Of a stretch of 64,000 bases of DNA, positions 31,865 through 37,235 are shown one piece after another. Where the stretch lies: contig JAGBEO010000008.1 in the NCBI GenBank assembly GCA_017936885.1, forward strand, positions 1 to 64,000, read 5' to 3'. The stretch comes from Lachnospiraceae bacterium (GTDB lineage Bacteria; Bacillota; Clostridia; Lachnospirales; Lachnospiraceae). Positions within the stretch are counted from its first letter, which is position 1; the number at the start of each line of letters is the position of its first letter. A model generated the notes under the pieces. It ran no database searches. It was not told the origin of the DNA and saw only the letters and a list, made by a program, of their open reading frames with translations. A program made the position numbers and the translations under genes.

Positions 31865-32035
31865 TTAACCCTGTGCAATGGAACCTGTAGGGCAAACACC
31901 TGCGCAAGAACCGCAATCAATACATTTTGTTGCATCAATTTCGAATTTGCCATCGCCCATGCTGATAGCGCCTACCGGACACTGAGCCTCACAAGCACCA
32001 CATGCTACACATGCATCACTGATTACATATGCCAT
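31865..32035 (-). CDS. 2[4Fe-4S] ferredoxin
   Basis: A 56-residue clostridial ferredoxin. Two CxxCxxCxxxCP motifs are seen, with cysteines at 9, 12, 15, 19 and at 38, 41, 44, 48. It carries low-potential electrons, for example from pyruvate oxidation to hydrogenase, and might also serve the PflA activase nearby. The ATG at 32033-32035 follows AAGGAGGA at good spacing. A longer upstream frame is not needed. It has its own terminator and promoter region. Confidence 0.95.
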   Translation of the reverse strand: MAYVISDACVACGACEAQCPVGAISMGDGKFEIDATKCIDCGSCAGVCPTGSIAQG

Positions 32036-32070
32036 AATAATATCCTCCTTGTATGATAAGACTATGCATA

Positions 32071-32090
32071 ATTGATATATATTTATCAAT
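32071..32090. promoter_or_regulatory. palindromic operator candidate, Rex-like, in the ferredoxin leader
   Basis: ATTGATA (32071-32077) and TATCAAT (32084-32090) form a perfect 7-bp inverted repeat with a 6-bp spacer. The central 18 bp (TTGATATATATTTATCAA) matches 11 of 14 defined positions of the clostridial Rex consensus TTGTTAAN4TTAACAA. It lies just after the predicted transcript start of the ferredoxin gene. Rex control is an inference. Confidence 0.35.
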
Positions 32091-32102
32091 CTGTTAGTCT
32101 CT

Positions 32103-32131
32103 ATTTTAATATAAAAGTATTGATTATACAA
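32103..32131 (-). promoter_or_regulatory. candidate promoter of the ferredoxin gene
   Basis: On the minus strand TTGTAT (32131-32126) is separated by 17 bp from TAAAAT (32108-32103). Both are fair matches. The palindrome at 32071-32090 lies just downstream. Confidence 0.45.
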
Positions 32132-32216
32132 GGGTAAAACATGGAAAAAGGCTAACATTTTTATACCAATGGGCAGCCGGAAAAAAGTGCGGCTGACGAG
32201 GTTGAAAATGCAGGCT

Positions 32217-32984
32217 TTAACTATGCTGTATACCTAATTCCTCCCGGCGTTTGCGGATGCCGTTCAGGATGACTTCCTTCTTCTCAATCAGCTTATTTTT
32301 ATCCATCGGTTCTATGCCTTCCAGTTTATAGGGGATACCGAGTTTCTCATACTTAGCCTTACCCATCGTATGATAGGGAAGCGCATCCAGTGCCTTGAGA
32401 TTGGATAATCCACCGATAAAATAACCTAACTGGTACAGATATTTATCATCGTCGGTAATGCCCGGTACGATGACATGACGAATCCATAGATCCACATGTT
32501 TTTCGTCCAGATATTGTGCGAAGGCAAGAATGCCGTCGTTGGGCTGAGAAGTCAGCTCTTTGTGTTTCTCAGGATCAATATGCTTGATATCCAGCATAAC
32601 GAGATCTGTAAGCGTCATTAAGTGATCCAGTTTGGCAAGCCATTCAGGATTGGCATTCTTCTTATAGGCGATACCGGAAGAGTCGATGCATGTATGGACG
32701 TTGTTCTTCTTACAGATGGTAAACAGATCGATCAAAAAGTCTACCTGCATCAGCGGTTCGCCGCCGGTAACCGTAATACCGCCGCCTTTATAAAAGGCTT
32801 CATTGCGCTTATACTGTTCAAAAATGTACTCCGGCTCCATTAAGGTTCCGGCATTCATTTCCCAGGTGTCCGGATTATGGCAGTAGGCGCATCGCATGGG
32901 ACAGCCCTGAACAAATACTACAAATCGTGTGCCCGGTCCGTCTACAGTACCGAAGCTCTCTAATGAGTGAATTCTTCCTTGCAT
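32217..32984 (-). CDS. pflA: pyruvate formate-lyase activating enzyme
   Basis: A 255-residue radical SAM enzyme that creates the glycyl radical on pyruvate formate-lyase. The cluster motif CPMRCAYC has cysteines at 28, 32 and 35, and the SAM-binding GGEPLMQ is near 75. Start segment IHSLESFGTVDGPGTRFVVF and later MLDIKHIDPEKHKELTSQ and IRHVIVPGITDD are typical of PflA. It needs reduced ferredoxin or flavodoxin as electron source. Its target here should be the separate glycyl-radical protein encoded at 34.6 kb. An oppositely oriented gene separates pflA from the pfl genes, so it needs its own promoter. Confidence 0.93.
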   Translation of the reverse strand: MQGRIHSLESFGTVDGPGTRFVVFVQGCPMRCAYCHNPDTWEMNAGTLMEPEYIFEQYKRNEAFYKGGGITVTGGEPLMQVDFLIDLFTICKKNNVHTCIDSSGIAYKKNANPEWLAKLDHLMTLTDLVMLDIKHIDPEKHKELTSQPNDGILAFAQYLDEKHVDLWIRHVIVPGITDDDKYLYQLGYFIGGLSNLKALDALPYHTMGKAKYEKLGIPYKLEGIEPMDKNKLIEKKEVILNGIRKRREELGIQHS

Positions 32985-33140: not shown

Positions 33141-34538
33141 ATGATGTTTTGTTTACAAAGGAAAGAAGAGAAAAGGTTGTATTGTTTAACAGCAGCGATT
33201 TTGACCTGTACATTTCTTGCGATAGCGCTAAATCCTGCGAACATGGGGATTCTTAGTATAAGAGAATGGCGTAACCGCAAAGCGACTGAAAAGCCGGTGG
33301 CAGAGAGCCGGACAGAAGAGAAGTTCTATATCTATTCATGGAATGAGGAGCTAAAGGATAAACTTGCCTATGTAACAGAGCAGTATCCGGAAACAGCGGA
33401 TCGAATCGAATTTGTAGACCTTTACGATTCCGCGACCTATCAGGATACAATAGACGAATTGTTGGAAAATCCAGAGGCAGAAAAGTATCCTGATATGATT
33501 GCCCTGGAACCCAATTACATTAGGAAATATACTGATTCGGATTATCTCATACCGGTTGAGGAGTGCGGAGTGACGAAAGAAGATATGTCTGAAATGTATC
33601 CCTATACCTTGCAGGTTGGTACGGACAGTCGGAATGATTCCGTGAAAGGGGTTTCTTGGATGGTCTGTCCCGGTGCCTTTGCCTATAGGACTGATCTGGC
33701 TGACAGCCTGCTTGATGTGGAGAGCCCGGAGGAGATGCAGGACGAAATCGGCTCATGGGCAGACTTTCTTGCAACAGCTAATAAGATCAACCGGAAATCC
33801 GGTGGTAAGACTAAAATGCTTGCCTCTAATGGTGAGATTGCAAATGCTTTTTATGCTAATAAAGTAAAGCCCTGGGTGACTTCTGATGATGTATTTCAGA
33901 TTGATCCTGCCATGGAAGAATACATGGATGTTTATAAGGCGTTGGAAACAAAGGATCTCACGCAGAAAGCCGAACAGTGGAGCCTGGAATGGATGGAAGG
34001 GTTTTCCGATGACGAAGTGTTCGGGTATTTTGGCTGTACATGGTTTTTGGAATGGGTTATTAAGCTGGGATGCGACGGAGAGCGCGTGGGAGAAGGAACA
34101 TACGGCTTGTGGAATATTTGTCAGGGCCCTGCACCTTACTACTGGGGAGGAACCTGGATCGCTGCAACGGAAGGATGTTCTGATAAGGATTTGGCAGGCG
34201 TGATTATGAAAACGCTTTGCTGCGAAACCGAAACGATGCTTGAGATGAGAGAGGACACGCTTGATTTTGTAAATAATAAGGCAGTCATGCAGGCGTTGTC
34301 AGATTCCGGCAAGGGTGATGATGATTTCTTGGGCGGACAGGATTCTATAGAAATCTTTTCCGACGTGGCTAAGCAGATCGACGTCTCCTGTATGACCGAA
34401 TATGATGAAGAGATCAATGAACTCTTTGACCAACAGGTTATGATATATACTTATGAGAATAAGAAAAAGAAAGATGTAATTTCAGGTTTTGAGAGTATGG
34501 TGGCTGACAGATTCCCTTCTCTGAAAGTGGAACATTGA
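33141..34538 (+). CDS. orphan extracellular solute-binding-like protein
   Basis: A 465-residue protein resembling family 1 carbohydrate-type ABC substrate-binding proteins. A hydrophobic N-terminal segment (TAAILTCTFLAIALNPANM, about 14-32) anchors or exports it. The first lobe holds FYIYSWNEELKDKL and YPDMIALEPNYIRKYT, and the second includes ATANKINRKSGGKTKM and PYYWGGTWIAATEG (near residues 333-346). No proper lipobox is seen. No permease or ATPase gene is nearby. It sits on the opposite strand between pflA and the pfl genes. Its ligand is unknown. Confidence 0.65.
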   Translation: MMFCLQRKEEKRLYCLTAAILTCTFLAIALNPANMGILSIREWRNRKATEKPVAESRTEEKFYIYSWNEELKDKLAYVTEQYPETADRIEFVDLYDSATYQDTIDELLENPEAEKYPDMIALEPNYIRKYTDSDYLIPVEECGVTKEDMSEMYPYTLQVGTDSRNDSVKGVSWMVCPGAFAYRTDLADSLLDVESPEEMQDEIGSWADFLATANKINRKSGGKTKMLASNGEIANAFYANKVKPWVTSDDVFQIDPAMEEYMDVYKALETKDLTQKAEQWSLEWMEGFSDDEVFGYFGCTWFLEWVIKLGCDGERVGEGTYGLWNICQGPAPYYWGGTWIAATEGCSDKDLAGVIMKTLCCETETMLEMREDTLDFVNNKAVMQALSDSGKGDDDFLGGQDSIEIFSDVAKQIDVSCMTEYDEEINELFDQQVMIYTYENKKKKDVISGFESMVADRFPSLKVEH

Positions 34539-34623: not shown

Positions 34624-34866
34624 TTAGATGCTCTCGTGGAATGTACGGGAGATAACGTCTGCCTGCTGTTCCGGAGTTAATTTGATGAAGTTAACTGCGT
34701 AACCGGAAACACGGATTGTTAACTGAGGATAGTTCTCAGGATGCTTCTGTGCATCTAATAATGTGTCTCTGTTCAGTACGTTAACGTTAAGGTGATGACC
34801 ACCCTTTGTTGCATAACCATCTAATAAAGATACTAAGTTATCTACCTGAGCATTTGCTGCTGCCAT
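34624..34866 (-). CDS. grcA: stand-alone glycyl-radical domain of pyruvate formate-lyase
   Basis: An 80-residue protein equal to the C-terminal end of ordinary PFL. It has the [11 protein letters not shown] start, [19 protein letters not shown] (about 22-40), the glycyl-radical loop RVSGYAVNF with the radical glycine at residue 55, and the [19 protein letters not shown] end. The 679-residue protein encoded upstream lacks exactly this part, so the two should form one enzyme. It resembles GrcA/YfiD spare radical domains, but here it would be the only radical domain. AGGAGG lies 8 nt before the ATG. It is the last gene before the terminator. Confidence 0.88.
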
Positions 34867-34915
34867 TGTATTGTCCTCCTATTAATTTATTTCCGATTCT
34901 ATGAAAAGGAATCGT

Positions 34916-35119
34916 TTATTGATAATCGTCCAAGCCCTCATGGAGAGTCGGAACACTACATGCCAATGGGGTACGGGAGCAATCCGTGCACCCCATTGTC
35001 TGTACATTTTTGGATTTTTCAGCTTTGTCATCAACGTCCACATTCACATGTCCGACACCCTGTGCCATACCGGAATCCAACATCTTAACAAAGTCATCAA
35101 TCATTTGATTGTTGTCCAT
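34916..35119 (-). CDS. small cysteine-containing protein resembling the front half of the radical domain
   Basis: A 67-residue protein between the two pfl parts, same strand. Residues 6-29 (starting MIDDFVKMLDSG and ending GHVNVDV) align with [23 protein letters not shown] of the radical protein (residues 8-30). The second half has no RVSGYA loop. Instead it has three cysteines (C44, C47, C54; pattern CTDCSRTPLAC) and an acidic end. The start is preceded by a weak AAAGGA site about 10 nt away. It may dock to the PFL body as a regulator, metal-binding subunit or decoy. This is inference, as no known family was recognised. Confidence 0.7.
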   Translation of the reverse strand: MDNNQMIDDFVKMLDSGMAQGVGHVNVDVDDKAEKSKNVQTMGCTDCSRTPLACSVPTLHEGLDDYQ

Positions 35120-35195
35120 ATATTCTCAATCCTTTATTTGTTCAGATCAAGTTAGATCTATTTATATAGGTCGAACTCGAATATCAACAGTGATA

Positions 35196-37235
35196 TTACT
35201 TATTTAAGTCGAGCTCAATATCGCCGGCAAATACCTGATCCTCTTTACCAAGAGCTCCAGGAATGATTGTGAAGGTATTGGAGATACCATCCTGTGCATC
35301 ATTGAATGGAAGCTTGGATACAGAAGATAAGGAAGCTACTGCACCATGAGTATCGCGTCCGTGCATCGGGTTAGCACCAGGAGCGAAAGGCTGGCCTTTC
35401 TTACGTCCGTCAGGTGTGTTACCTGTTGCCTTACCATATGTTACATTAGATGTAATAGTAAGGATGGATGTTGTCGGGAAGCCATCTCTGTAGGTGTGAT
35501 GTCTTCTTACTGCTGTCATGAACTTGTGTACAATATCCTGTGCGATTTCGTCTACACGGTCATCGTCGTTACCATATTTAGGGAATTCACCTGTTGTCTT
35601 GAAGTCAACGATGATTCCGTCTTCGTCTCTGATCGGCTCAACCTTAGCATACTTGATAGCAGATAAGGAGTCAGCTACGATAGAAAGACCTGCAACACCT
35701 GTTGCGAAGTAACGTCTTACGTCTCTGTCATGAAGAGCCATCTCTGCTCTCTCATAGCAGTATTTATCATGCATATAGTGGATGATGTTCAGAGTGTTTA
35801 CATATACATCTGCCTGCCACTCCATCATGTCTAAGAATTTATCCATAACATCATCATAGTCAAGTACATCACCGACAACCGGACGATATTTAGGTCCAAC
35901 CTGTTTCTTGGTAACTTCATCAACACCGCCGTTTAATGCGTACAGTAAGCACTTAGCAAGGTTGGCACGTGCACCGAAGAACTGCATTTCTTTACCAACT
36001 CTCATGGAAGATACACAGCAAGCGATTGCATAATCATCACCGTGTGTTACTCTCATCAGGTCATCGTTCTCATACTGGATAGAAGAGGTCTGGATAGACA
36101 TCTTAGCACAGTATTTCTTCCAAGCTTCAGGAAGTCTTGTGGACCAAAGAACTGTTAAGTTCGGCTCCGGAGAAGGTCCTAAGTTTGTTAATGTGTGTAA
36201 GTAACGGAAACTCATCTTAGTAACCATCGGACGTCCGTCAACACCAACACCGCCAAGAGACTCTGTTACCCATACCGGATCACCAGCGAAGATCTGGTTG
36301 TATTCAGGTGTACGAGCAAATTTGATGCAACGTAATTTCATGATGAAGTGATCAACGAACTCCTGAATCTGCTCTTCTGTAAATGTGCCGTTAGCTAAGT
36401 CTCTCTCTGCGTAGATATCAAGGAAGGTAGAAGTACGTCCAAGGGACATAGCTGCACCGTTCTGCTCTTTTACTGCGCAAAGGTAACCGAAATATGTTGC
36501 CTGAATAGCTTCCTGTACGTTAGAAGCAGGTTTAGAAATATCACAGCCGTAAGAAGCTGCCATTTCTTTCATCATCTTAAGAGCAACCATCTGCTCGGAA
36601 AGCTCCTCACGAAGACGGATAACATCATCTGTCATAACACGTCCTGTGGAATCTTTCTGTGCCTGCTTATCCTCGATCAGTCTGTCAATACCGTACAGAG
36701 CAACTCTTCTGTAGTCACCGATGATACGTCCACGTCCGTATGCATCCGGAAGACCTGTGATGATGTGAGCGGAACGGCATGCTCTCATCTCTGCATTGTA
36801 AGCATCGAAACATCCTGCATTGTGTGTCTTTCTGTGTGTAGAGAAGAACTCGCTGATCTCAGGGTCAACTTCGTAACCGTTATCGGAGCAGGCTTTCTCT
36901 GCCATTCTGATACCGCCGTAAGGCTGTAAAGAACGTTTGAAAGGCTTATCTGTCTGGAAACCTACGATTGTCTCTTTGCTCTTGTCTAAGTAACCAGGGC
37001 CGTGGGATGTGATAGTAGATACAACCTTTGTATCCATATCAAGCACACCGCCGGCTTCACGCTCCTGCTTCTGTAAGTCAAGAACCATTGCCCATAAGTC
37101 TTTTGTGTTCTGTGTAGCGTCAGCTAAGAAGGACTCGTCGCCATCATAAGGATGATAGTTTCTCTGGATGAAGTCACGAACGTTAACTTCTTTGTCCCAT
37201 TTGCCGCCTACAAAATCTTTCCATTCTGGTCTCAT
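35196..37235 (-). CDS. pflB: pyruvate formate-lyase catalytic body lacking the glycyl-radical domain
   Basis: A 679-residue formate C-acetyltransferase, which splits pyruvate and CoA into acetyl-CoA and formate. The two active cysteines are C406-C407 in the [11 protein letters not shown] stretch. Other family segments are [20 protein letters not shown] near the start, [33 protein letters not shown], and [19 protein letters not shown] near residues 645-663. The protein ends at [18 protein letters not shown], where normal PFL (about 760 residues) would continue into the radical domain. That domain is a separate gene 330 bp downstream. AGGAGG precedes the ATG. It is not a frameshift, since separate starts and ribosome binding sites exist. 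Confidence 0.93.

Follow-up and report, generated by a model that had tools for sequence, protein, structure and literature searches.

Pyruvate formate-lyase (PFL), normally one protein, carries out a central fermentation step, and bacteria of this group (Lachnospiraceae) are abundant gut commensals. In one such genome, a 64,000-nucleotide stretch of contig JAGBEO010000008.1 (the window) carries a PFL gene that stops short of the glycyl radical domain, followed by a small gene and then by a gene for the radical domain by itself. The question is whether these parts make up a genuine multi-subunit enzyme and what the small gene between them contributes.

Catalytic body and radical domain lie on separate genes

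On the minus strand, the gene order is body, middle gene, and radical subunit, with one gene separating the body gene from the radical gene. The body (679 amino acids; positions 35196-37235) scored 1093.5 bits against TIGR01255 (cut-off, 994.2) and 726 bits against PF02901, and it has both the whole-protein score and the adjacent active-site cysteines (Cys406-Cys407) of the TIGR01255 equivalog; this cysteine pair did not vary across the 87 split and 43 full-length rows compared. The TIGR01255 match spans positions 2 to 665 of 744, and the radical glycine is absent from the chain. The radical domain is on a separate gene (34624-34866, minus strand), which encodes an 80-residue protein with the motif RVSGYAVNF, its glycine being Gly55. 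Between the two lies the gene for a 67-residue protein (34916-35119, minus strand), here called the middle protein. A first-pass annotation of the window had described the body, which it gave as a 679-residue PFL with C406-C407 that stops before the radical domain, and the 80-residue protein two genes downstream; coordinates and features of the former were correct, and the latter was confirmed, HLNVNV beginning at residue 25. The cut had been placed before HLNVNV. Its location held, but the border lies about 24 residues ahead of HLNVNV, so that the helix preceding that strand is also on the separate piece. By comparison, then, the body has lost its radical domain, and a subunit bearing the radical glycine is encoded beside it.

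Direct reading of the start regions revealed AGGAGG upstream of the body and radical-subunit starts and AAGGA ahead of that of the middle gene. A consensus scan placed a promoter-like site, TTGACT-18-TATAAT, 5' of the body gene (37363-37334, minus strand) and a terminator-like hairpin of 15 pairs plus a T run 3' of the radical gene (34599-34567, minus strand). In the same scan, the hairpin had a terminator-like score on both strands. The body, middle, and radical genes probably form one operon. A PFL activating enzyme of the radical SAM type (255 residues; 32217-32984; 293 bits against TIGR02493; cut-off, 231.75) is encoded on the same strand, not adjacent; because a 465-residue gene without an NCBIfam match (33141-34538, plus strand) intervenes on the opposite strand, the activase lies outside this unit. 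Just 3' of the activase is a 97-residue frame with matches to two 4Fe-4S ferredoxin motifs (31865-32158, minus strand).

We compared the locus with relatives, using the best 80 of at least 586 confirmed stretches. The body ends at the same place in 80/80 of these, the middle gene is present in 80/80, and the radical gene is present in 78/80, the two misses (L012 and L045) being located at contig ends; the activase was found in 63/80 within the locus stretches examined, with two cut by the locus end. An assembly error is ruled out by this shared arrangement. The frame relative to the body was distributed 51/41/35 for the middle gene and 57/56/44 for the radical gene, and such freely varying frames rule out a frameshift or read-through. 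Thus, the claim of an ordered split whose parts have their own starts and ribosome-binding sites was borne out by the sites before all three starts as well as by the frames, and the survey of gene order that had been proposed for related genomes gave the counts above.

The first-pass annotation had also seen no intact PFL in the window, and a genome-wide PFL-like family search (3.57 Mb; completeness, 93.6%) agreed, since no PFL was found besides the split body. The other match was a 672-residue glycyl radical enzyme (GRE) on a different contig (C28) with a single active-site cysteine (SACWEPM), which we do not count as a PFL because it has one cysteine in that region.

The radical subunit scored 161.6 bits against NF038360 (NCBIfam GrcA3; cut-off, 158) and belongs to that family, while falling under the GrcA and GrcA2 cut-offs (100.7 bits against GrcA TIGR04365; cut-off, 170). 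The intact PFL that goes alongside a GrcA spare part was not found in the 93.6%-complete genome. Among the matches listed, stand-alone GrcA3 proteins are restricted to split-PFL genomes, and in full-length genomes the GrcA3 match sits inside a long frame; G034 and G142, which fall in between, are fragments of a joined gene truncated at contig ends. The 80-residue protein, which NCBI names GrcA3 (a spare part), is this PFL's only radical domain. A second, unlinked radical-subunit copy occurs in nine split genomes among the matches listed. The present genome is one of them, with an 84-residue open reading frame at C1:61900-62100, next to what we take to be a polynucleotide phosphorylase-like gene. 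Such a second gene fits the benefit suggested by the first-pass annotation, namely, that a split would let the cell swap an oxygen-cut radical piece or tune activity by the ratio of parts, which is plausible.

Relatives of the radical subunit, 65 to 83% identical, are encoded by 14 viral contigs in IMG/VR, and the replaceable radical part may be carried by some phages. Searches of IMG/VR with exact peptide patterns found no PFL body, and tblastn against it found no relative of the middle protein.

The middle protein resembles half a radical domain with a cysteine tail

The middle protein is composed of an N-half with a helix and GHVNVDV, a variable linker, and a conserved Cys tail (VQTMGCTDCSRTPLACSVPTLHEGLDDY). 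In hhalign, the N-half (helix and then GHxNV) matched radical domains at 95.4% (E, 1.8e-8; 31 columns) and, with a narrower alignment, at 81.8%. A middle-protein profile run over 150 genomes returned radical-domain N-halves as second matches and, itself containing no body, also matched the C terminus of the PFL body in three genomes (G092, G018, and G015). Judged by these profile comparisons, the N-half and the radical domain are homologous. The middle protein has no Gly loop; the variable linker and the tail take its place, and the tail residues Cys47, Ala53, Cys54, and Pro57 were invariant over 28 diverse middle proteins. For a set of 22 middle genes, including 21 from hand-picked relatives with 67-residue proteins, dN/dS was 0.087 for the whole gene (119/231 pairs kept after dropping those outside dS 0.05 to 3), 0.057 for the tail, and 0.36 for the linker. 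Thus, the middle gene, tail included, is under purifying selection, and the whole-gene value rules out a decayed gene.

The middle protein had no family match in Pfam, Gly_radical PF01228 included, and only a weak partial match to GrcA3 in NCBIfam (16.4 bits); with PHROGs added, the three collections yielded no convincing family match, and no resemblance to PDB chains was found (best E, 0.15). Separately, weak matches to the middle profile, and searches from one of them, brought up a second family of about 65 to 80 residues (L237 to L242 and L244, with a copy in the present genome at C18:117591-117752). Its members share a comparable N-half, with GVSRLKV or GVGRFKV, and continue with YHHGRCDVGSPWAxG; no GRE was seen beside these genes in the first 60 residues of neighboring frames.

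Among 150 family genomes from 149 genera, tallied by hand from the match list, full-length PFL occurred in 59, split PFL in 56, and both in 3, with 4 more split genomes visible as fragments only; 5 of the 59 full-length genomes carry genes nested in the split clade described below. The middle protein was present in 39/150, comprising 38 split genomes and one 67%-complete genome in which no body was found (G006), and in no genome with full-length PFL alone. In a sample of 196 genomes from the order, split PFLs were found, among the matches listed, in the same family and in three others (f8, f11, and f22). An apparent case in a further family (f2, G330) was rejected as a contig-end artifact (L186). 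At the phylum level, 120 of 398 genomes had a match and 2 were split, the present genome and another of its family; two more (G367 and G536) gave short partial matches. The middle protein occurred in 2/396 phylum genomes, the same two that are split.

A Cys tail accompanies the split in cis or in trans at the loci examined

To the 55 split loci of the family sample, which represent every clear split genome except the present one, we added 20 loci from 23 truncated matches in the order sample, among the matches listed, giving 75 loci from 65 genera (several order genomes share one genus). The body carries a Cys tail in cis, without a middle gene, at 25 loci; a middle gene is present, without a cis tail, at 49; and 1 locus, cut by a contig end (L186), was unclassified. 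Both together were seen in 0/75 loci and neither in 0/75, with that one unclassified. The middle gene lies beside the body at 47 of the 49 loci and is unlinked at 2 (G130 and G002), and the radical gene is close to the body at 74/75. One middle gene missed by the automatic search (L183) was found by eye, and two loci (L124 and L139) were resolved by unlinked genes. Cis bodies end in an extension of 27 to 47 residues with at least two cysteines (for example, GCGDMACKVPTLHKGIDDDD in L098) and bear this tail alone, without the radical-domain-like half; bodies with a middle gene have a short, acidic, Cys-free end of 14 to 25 residues. No middle gene was found elsewhere in the 25 cis genomes, some of which are incomplete, the matches there being to the radical-subunit N-half or the body's own tail. 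Comparison of these loci shows that a Cys-tail element accompanies the split. It forms either the C terminus of the body or the C-half of the middle protein, and no locus examined has both.

The cis and trans forms differ in detail. Against shuffled sequences, 12/25 cis tails had no significant similarity to the middle-protein tail, being Cys-rich and of the CxCCEP or CCSP type, and two middle proteins (L101 and L109) end before the ACxxP part. Corrected for phylogeny, the cis/trans pattern amounts to 3 contrasts on well-supported branches (P = 0.25) and 9 on all branches; the raw Fisher value of 9e-17 ignores kinship and was computed before the three exceptions were resolved.

A docking model and its competitors

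In E. coli, a radical domain supplied in trans works, according to the available text of PMC8683613, and a strain with PflB G734A plus GrcA makes formate, according to that of PMC12338860. In the former text, PFL cut after residue 695 bound YfiD too weakly to measure and was activated 32-fold less, and residues 696 to 733 were termed the recognition element for YfiD; once activated, the cut-695 complexes were as active as the wild type. The split bodies end before the region that corresponds to residues 696 to 733, and the middle protein includes, besides the Cys tail, a stretch homologous to part of that region. Our preferred reading is that the tail, plus the middle protein where present, would substitute for this recognition element, and we infer that an exchangeable radical subunit docks on a site formed by the body and the Cys tail. 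The radical subunit would dock in the slot held by the radical domain in an ordinary PFL, PflA would install the radical on Gly55 of the docked subunit, and the radical would then move to Cys406/Cys407 as usual. Less surely, the middle protein may use its radical-domain-like helix and strand to dock on the edge of the body where the radical subunit docks and, together with the Cys tail, might serve as a recognition or holding element for binding, activation, and exchange of the free radical subunit. This small, previously unnamed protein seems to manage the joint between body and radical part. From the comparative evidence, we put the probability of a genuine multi-subunit PFL, with a docked exchangeable radical subunit and a Cys-tail recognition or holding element, at roughly 55%.

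The scarcity of full-length PFL among split genomes (3/56 in the 150 family genomes) favors the docking model. So do the arrangement common to the 80 relatives, the genome search that found no intact PFL, the occurrence of stand-alone radical domains, among the matches listed, in split genomes only, the cis/trans pattern of the 75 loci, the N-half homology, the purifying selection on the tail, the joined genes nested in the split clade (below), and the E. coli results on trans radical domains and on the cut at residue 695. Against it stand the 12/25 dissimilar cis tails, the short proteins of L101 and L109, the 3 well-supported contrasts, and the genome (G006) where a middle gene was seen but no body was found. 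In the available text of PMC8683613, moreover, cut-695 PFL was activated 5.4-fold better with YfiD without its N terminus than with whole YfiD, which, with the wild-type activity of the activated complexes, makes a recognition element less necessary; the 80-residue subunit likewise lacks that long disordered N terminus. The cis forms indicate that the radical-domain-like half is not essential to the tail's job, and docking alone leaves the cysteines unexplained, which counts against the model. An AlphaFold2 model of a read-through body-middle-radical chain from L032 had a pLDDT of 33.8 and was left unused.

A strong rival to the recognition-element reading is that the middle protein or Cys tail is a redox guard or placeholder filling the radical slot, which would shield Cys406/Cys407, or cap them reversibly by a mixed disulfide, when oxygen is present, until it gives way to the radical subunit. 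It accounts for a radical-domain N-half in which a Cys motif replaces the Gly loop, for the invariance of Cys47 and Cys54 in 28 members, and for radical subunits that are Cys-free in 156/157 cases. The tail is also absent from one of the two joined lineages discussed below; however, the joined gene of the other, L223, still has a Cys stretch. We consider such a guard possible but tentative, and similarly hold it conceivable that a Cys-tailed placeholder, acting in cis or trans, occupies and shields the empty radical slot before passing it to the exchangeable radical subunit.

By analogy with the accessory subunits of benzylsuccinate synthase (BSS), the Cys tail might instead bind a metal or Fe-S cluster and tune radical transfer. 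Conserved cysteines on a small GRE partner suit this idea, and BSS beta and gamma, which are likewise small Cys-dependent accessory proteins of a GRE, bind [4Fe-4S] in HiPIP-like folds, with beta promoting thiyl formation (available text of PMC12590467). In contrast, the origin of the middle protein is half of a radical domain. Each tail has two invariant cysteines only, fewer than one cluster usually needs, and we consider cluster binding unlikely. Slightly more doubtful is a decoy that would compete with the radical subunit and so lower PFL activity: the docking half is kept and the glycine is absent, as such a decoy would have it, but a pure competitor does not explain the 25 loci at which the body itself carries a Cys tail, without the docking half.

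Evolutionary history of the split

A tree was built from 90 body cores, a thinned set of 136 rows. Every split body fell within a single clade (support, 100/99), to which five full-length PFLs also belong. A split-only clade excluding these nested full-length PFLs was rejected (AU P = 0.0013); three full/split changes are required on the tree. On this topology there appear to have been one split and two re-fusions, the direction being not proved. In one joined gene, L223 (a 774-residue frame whose exact position in the tree is weakly supported), a Cys-rich stretch, TCGCEEVTCAVD, lies between body and radical domain. The other joined lineage (G074, G011, G108, and G143) is clean, without the Cys stretch, and searches of these four genomes found no middle gene. 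In these two cases, the Cys tail would have been lost, or left as a scar, once the radical domain was covalently attached. The three changes can be read in either direction, so that the split might have arisen several times, with the nested full-length genes ancestral rather than re-fused. We think this improbable, as the split bodies form one clade, its specific residues are also borne by the nested full-length genes, and L223 has its Cys stretch between body and radical domain.

Relation to known systems and significance

This PFL resembles PflB (TIGR01255; E. coli, PDB 1h16/2pfl) in body sequence, the Cys-Cys pair, RVSGYA, and a PflA-type activase nearby, but its radical domain is on a separate 80-residue protein and a Cys-tailed protein is added. 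With GrcA/YfiD (TIGR04365 and NF008341) and GrcA3 (NF038360) it shares a stand-alone radical domain, here linked to a body that lacks one, with no intact PFL found to rescue. That the 80-residue protein is an ordinary GrcA/YfiD spare part beside an intact PFL, as its NCBIfam name would have it, is very improbable, because no such PFL was found in the 93.6%-complete genome and the gene adjoins a radical-domain-less body in 78 of the best 80 of at least 586 relatives, the others being contig-cut.

The best-scoring solved chains for the body were PDB 38la_A (687 residues) and 38lb_A (739 residues), both named formate acetyltransferase; by their chain sequences and molecule names, they could be split bodies as found in nature or constructs that were truncated. 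No match to the radical subunit or the middle protein was found in either chain, and 38lb ends in an extension with ECDMC; split bodies may therefore already be under study by others. A literature search, with preprints and most subscription journals outside its range, found no account of a split PFL, and the available text of PMC11528403 and PMC12288474 held nothing on one.

Overall, the first-pass reading is well supported in that the split is ordered and conserved and the genome search turned up no intact PFL, but it overlooked the middle gene, the locus's most novel component, and could not foresee the re-joined radical domain in lineages nested in the split clade. If the PFL of these bacteria is a plug-in enzyme, the small proteins that currently bear spare-cofactor names in this group would be obligate subunits, and the locus would offer a natural system for measuring docking, activation, and exchange of a glycyl radical domain. 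It also bears on the question of what residues 696 to 733 of E. coli PFL recognize in the spare part. If the placeholder reading is true, PFL in these anaerobes would have a plug-in radical cofactor protein, replaced after oxygen damage, and would be controlled by subunit ratio, and the Cys-tailed placeholder would be a new kind of glycyl-radical-enzyme element.
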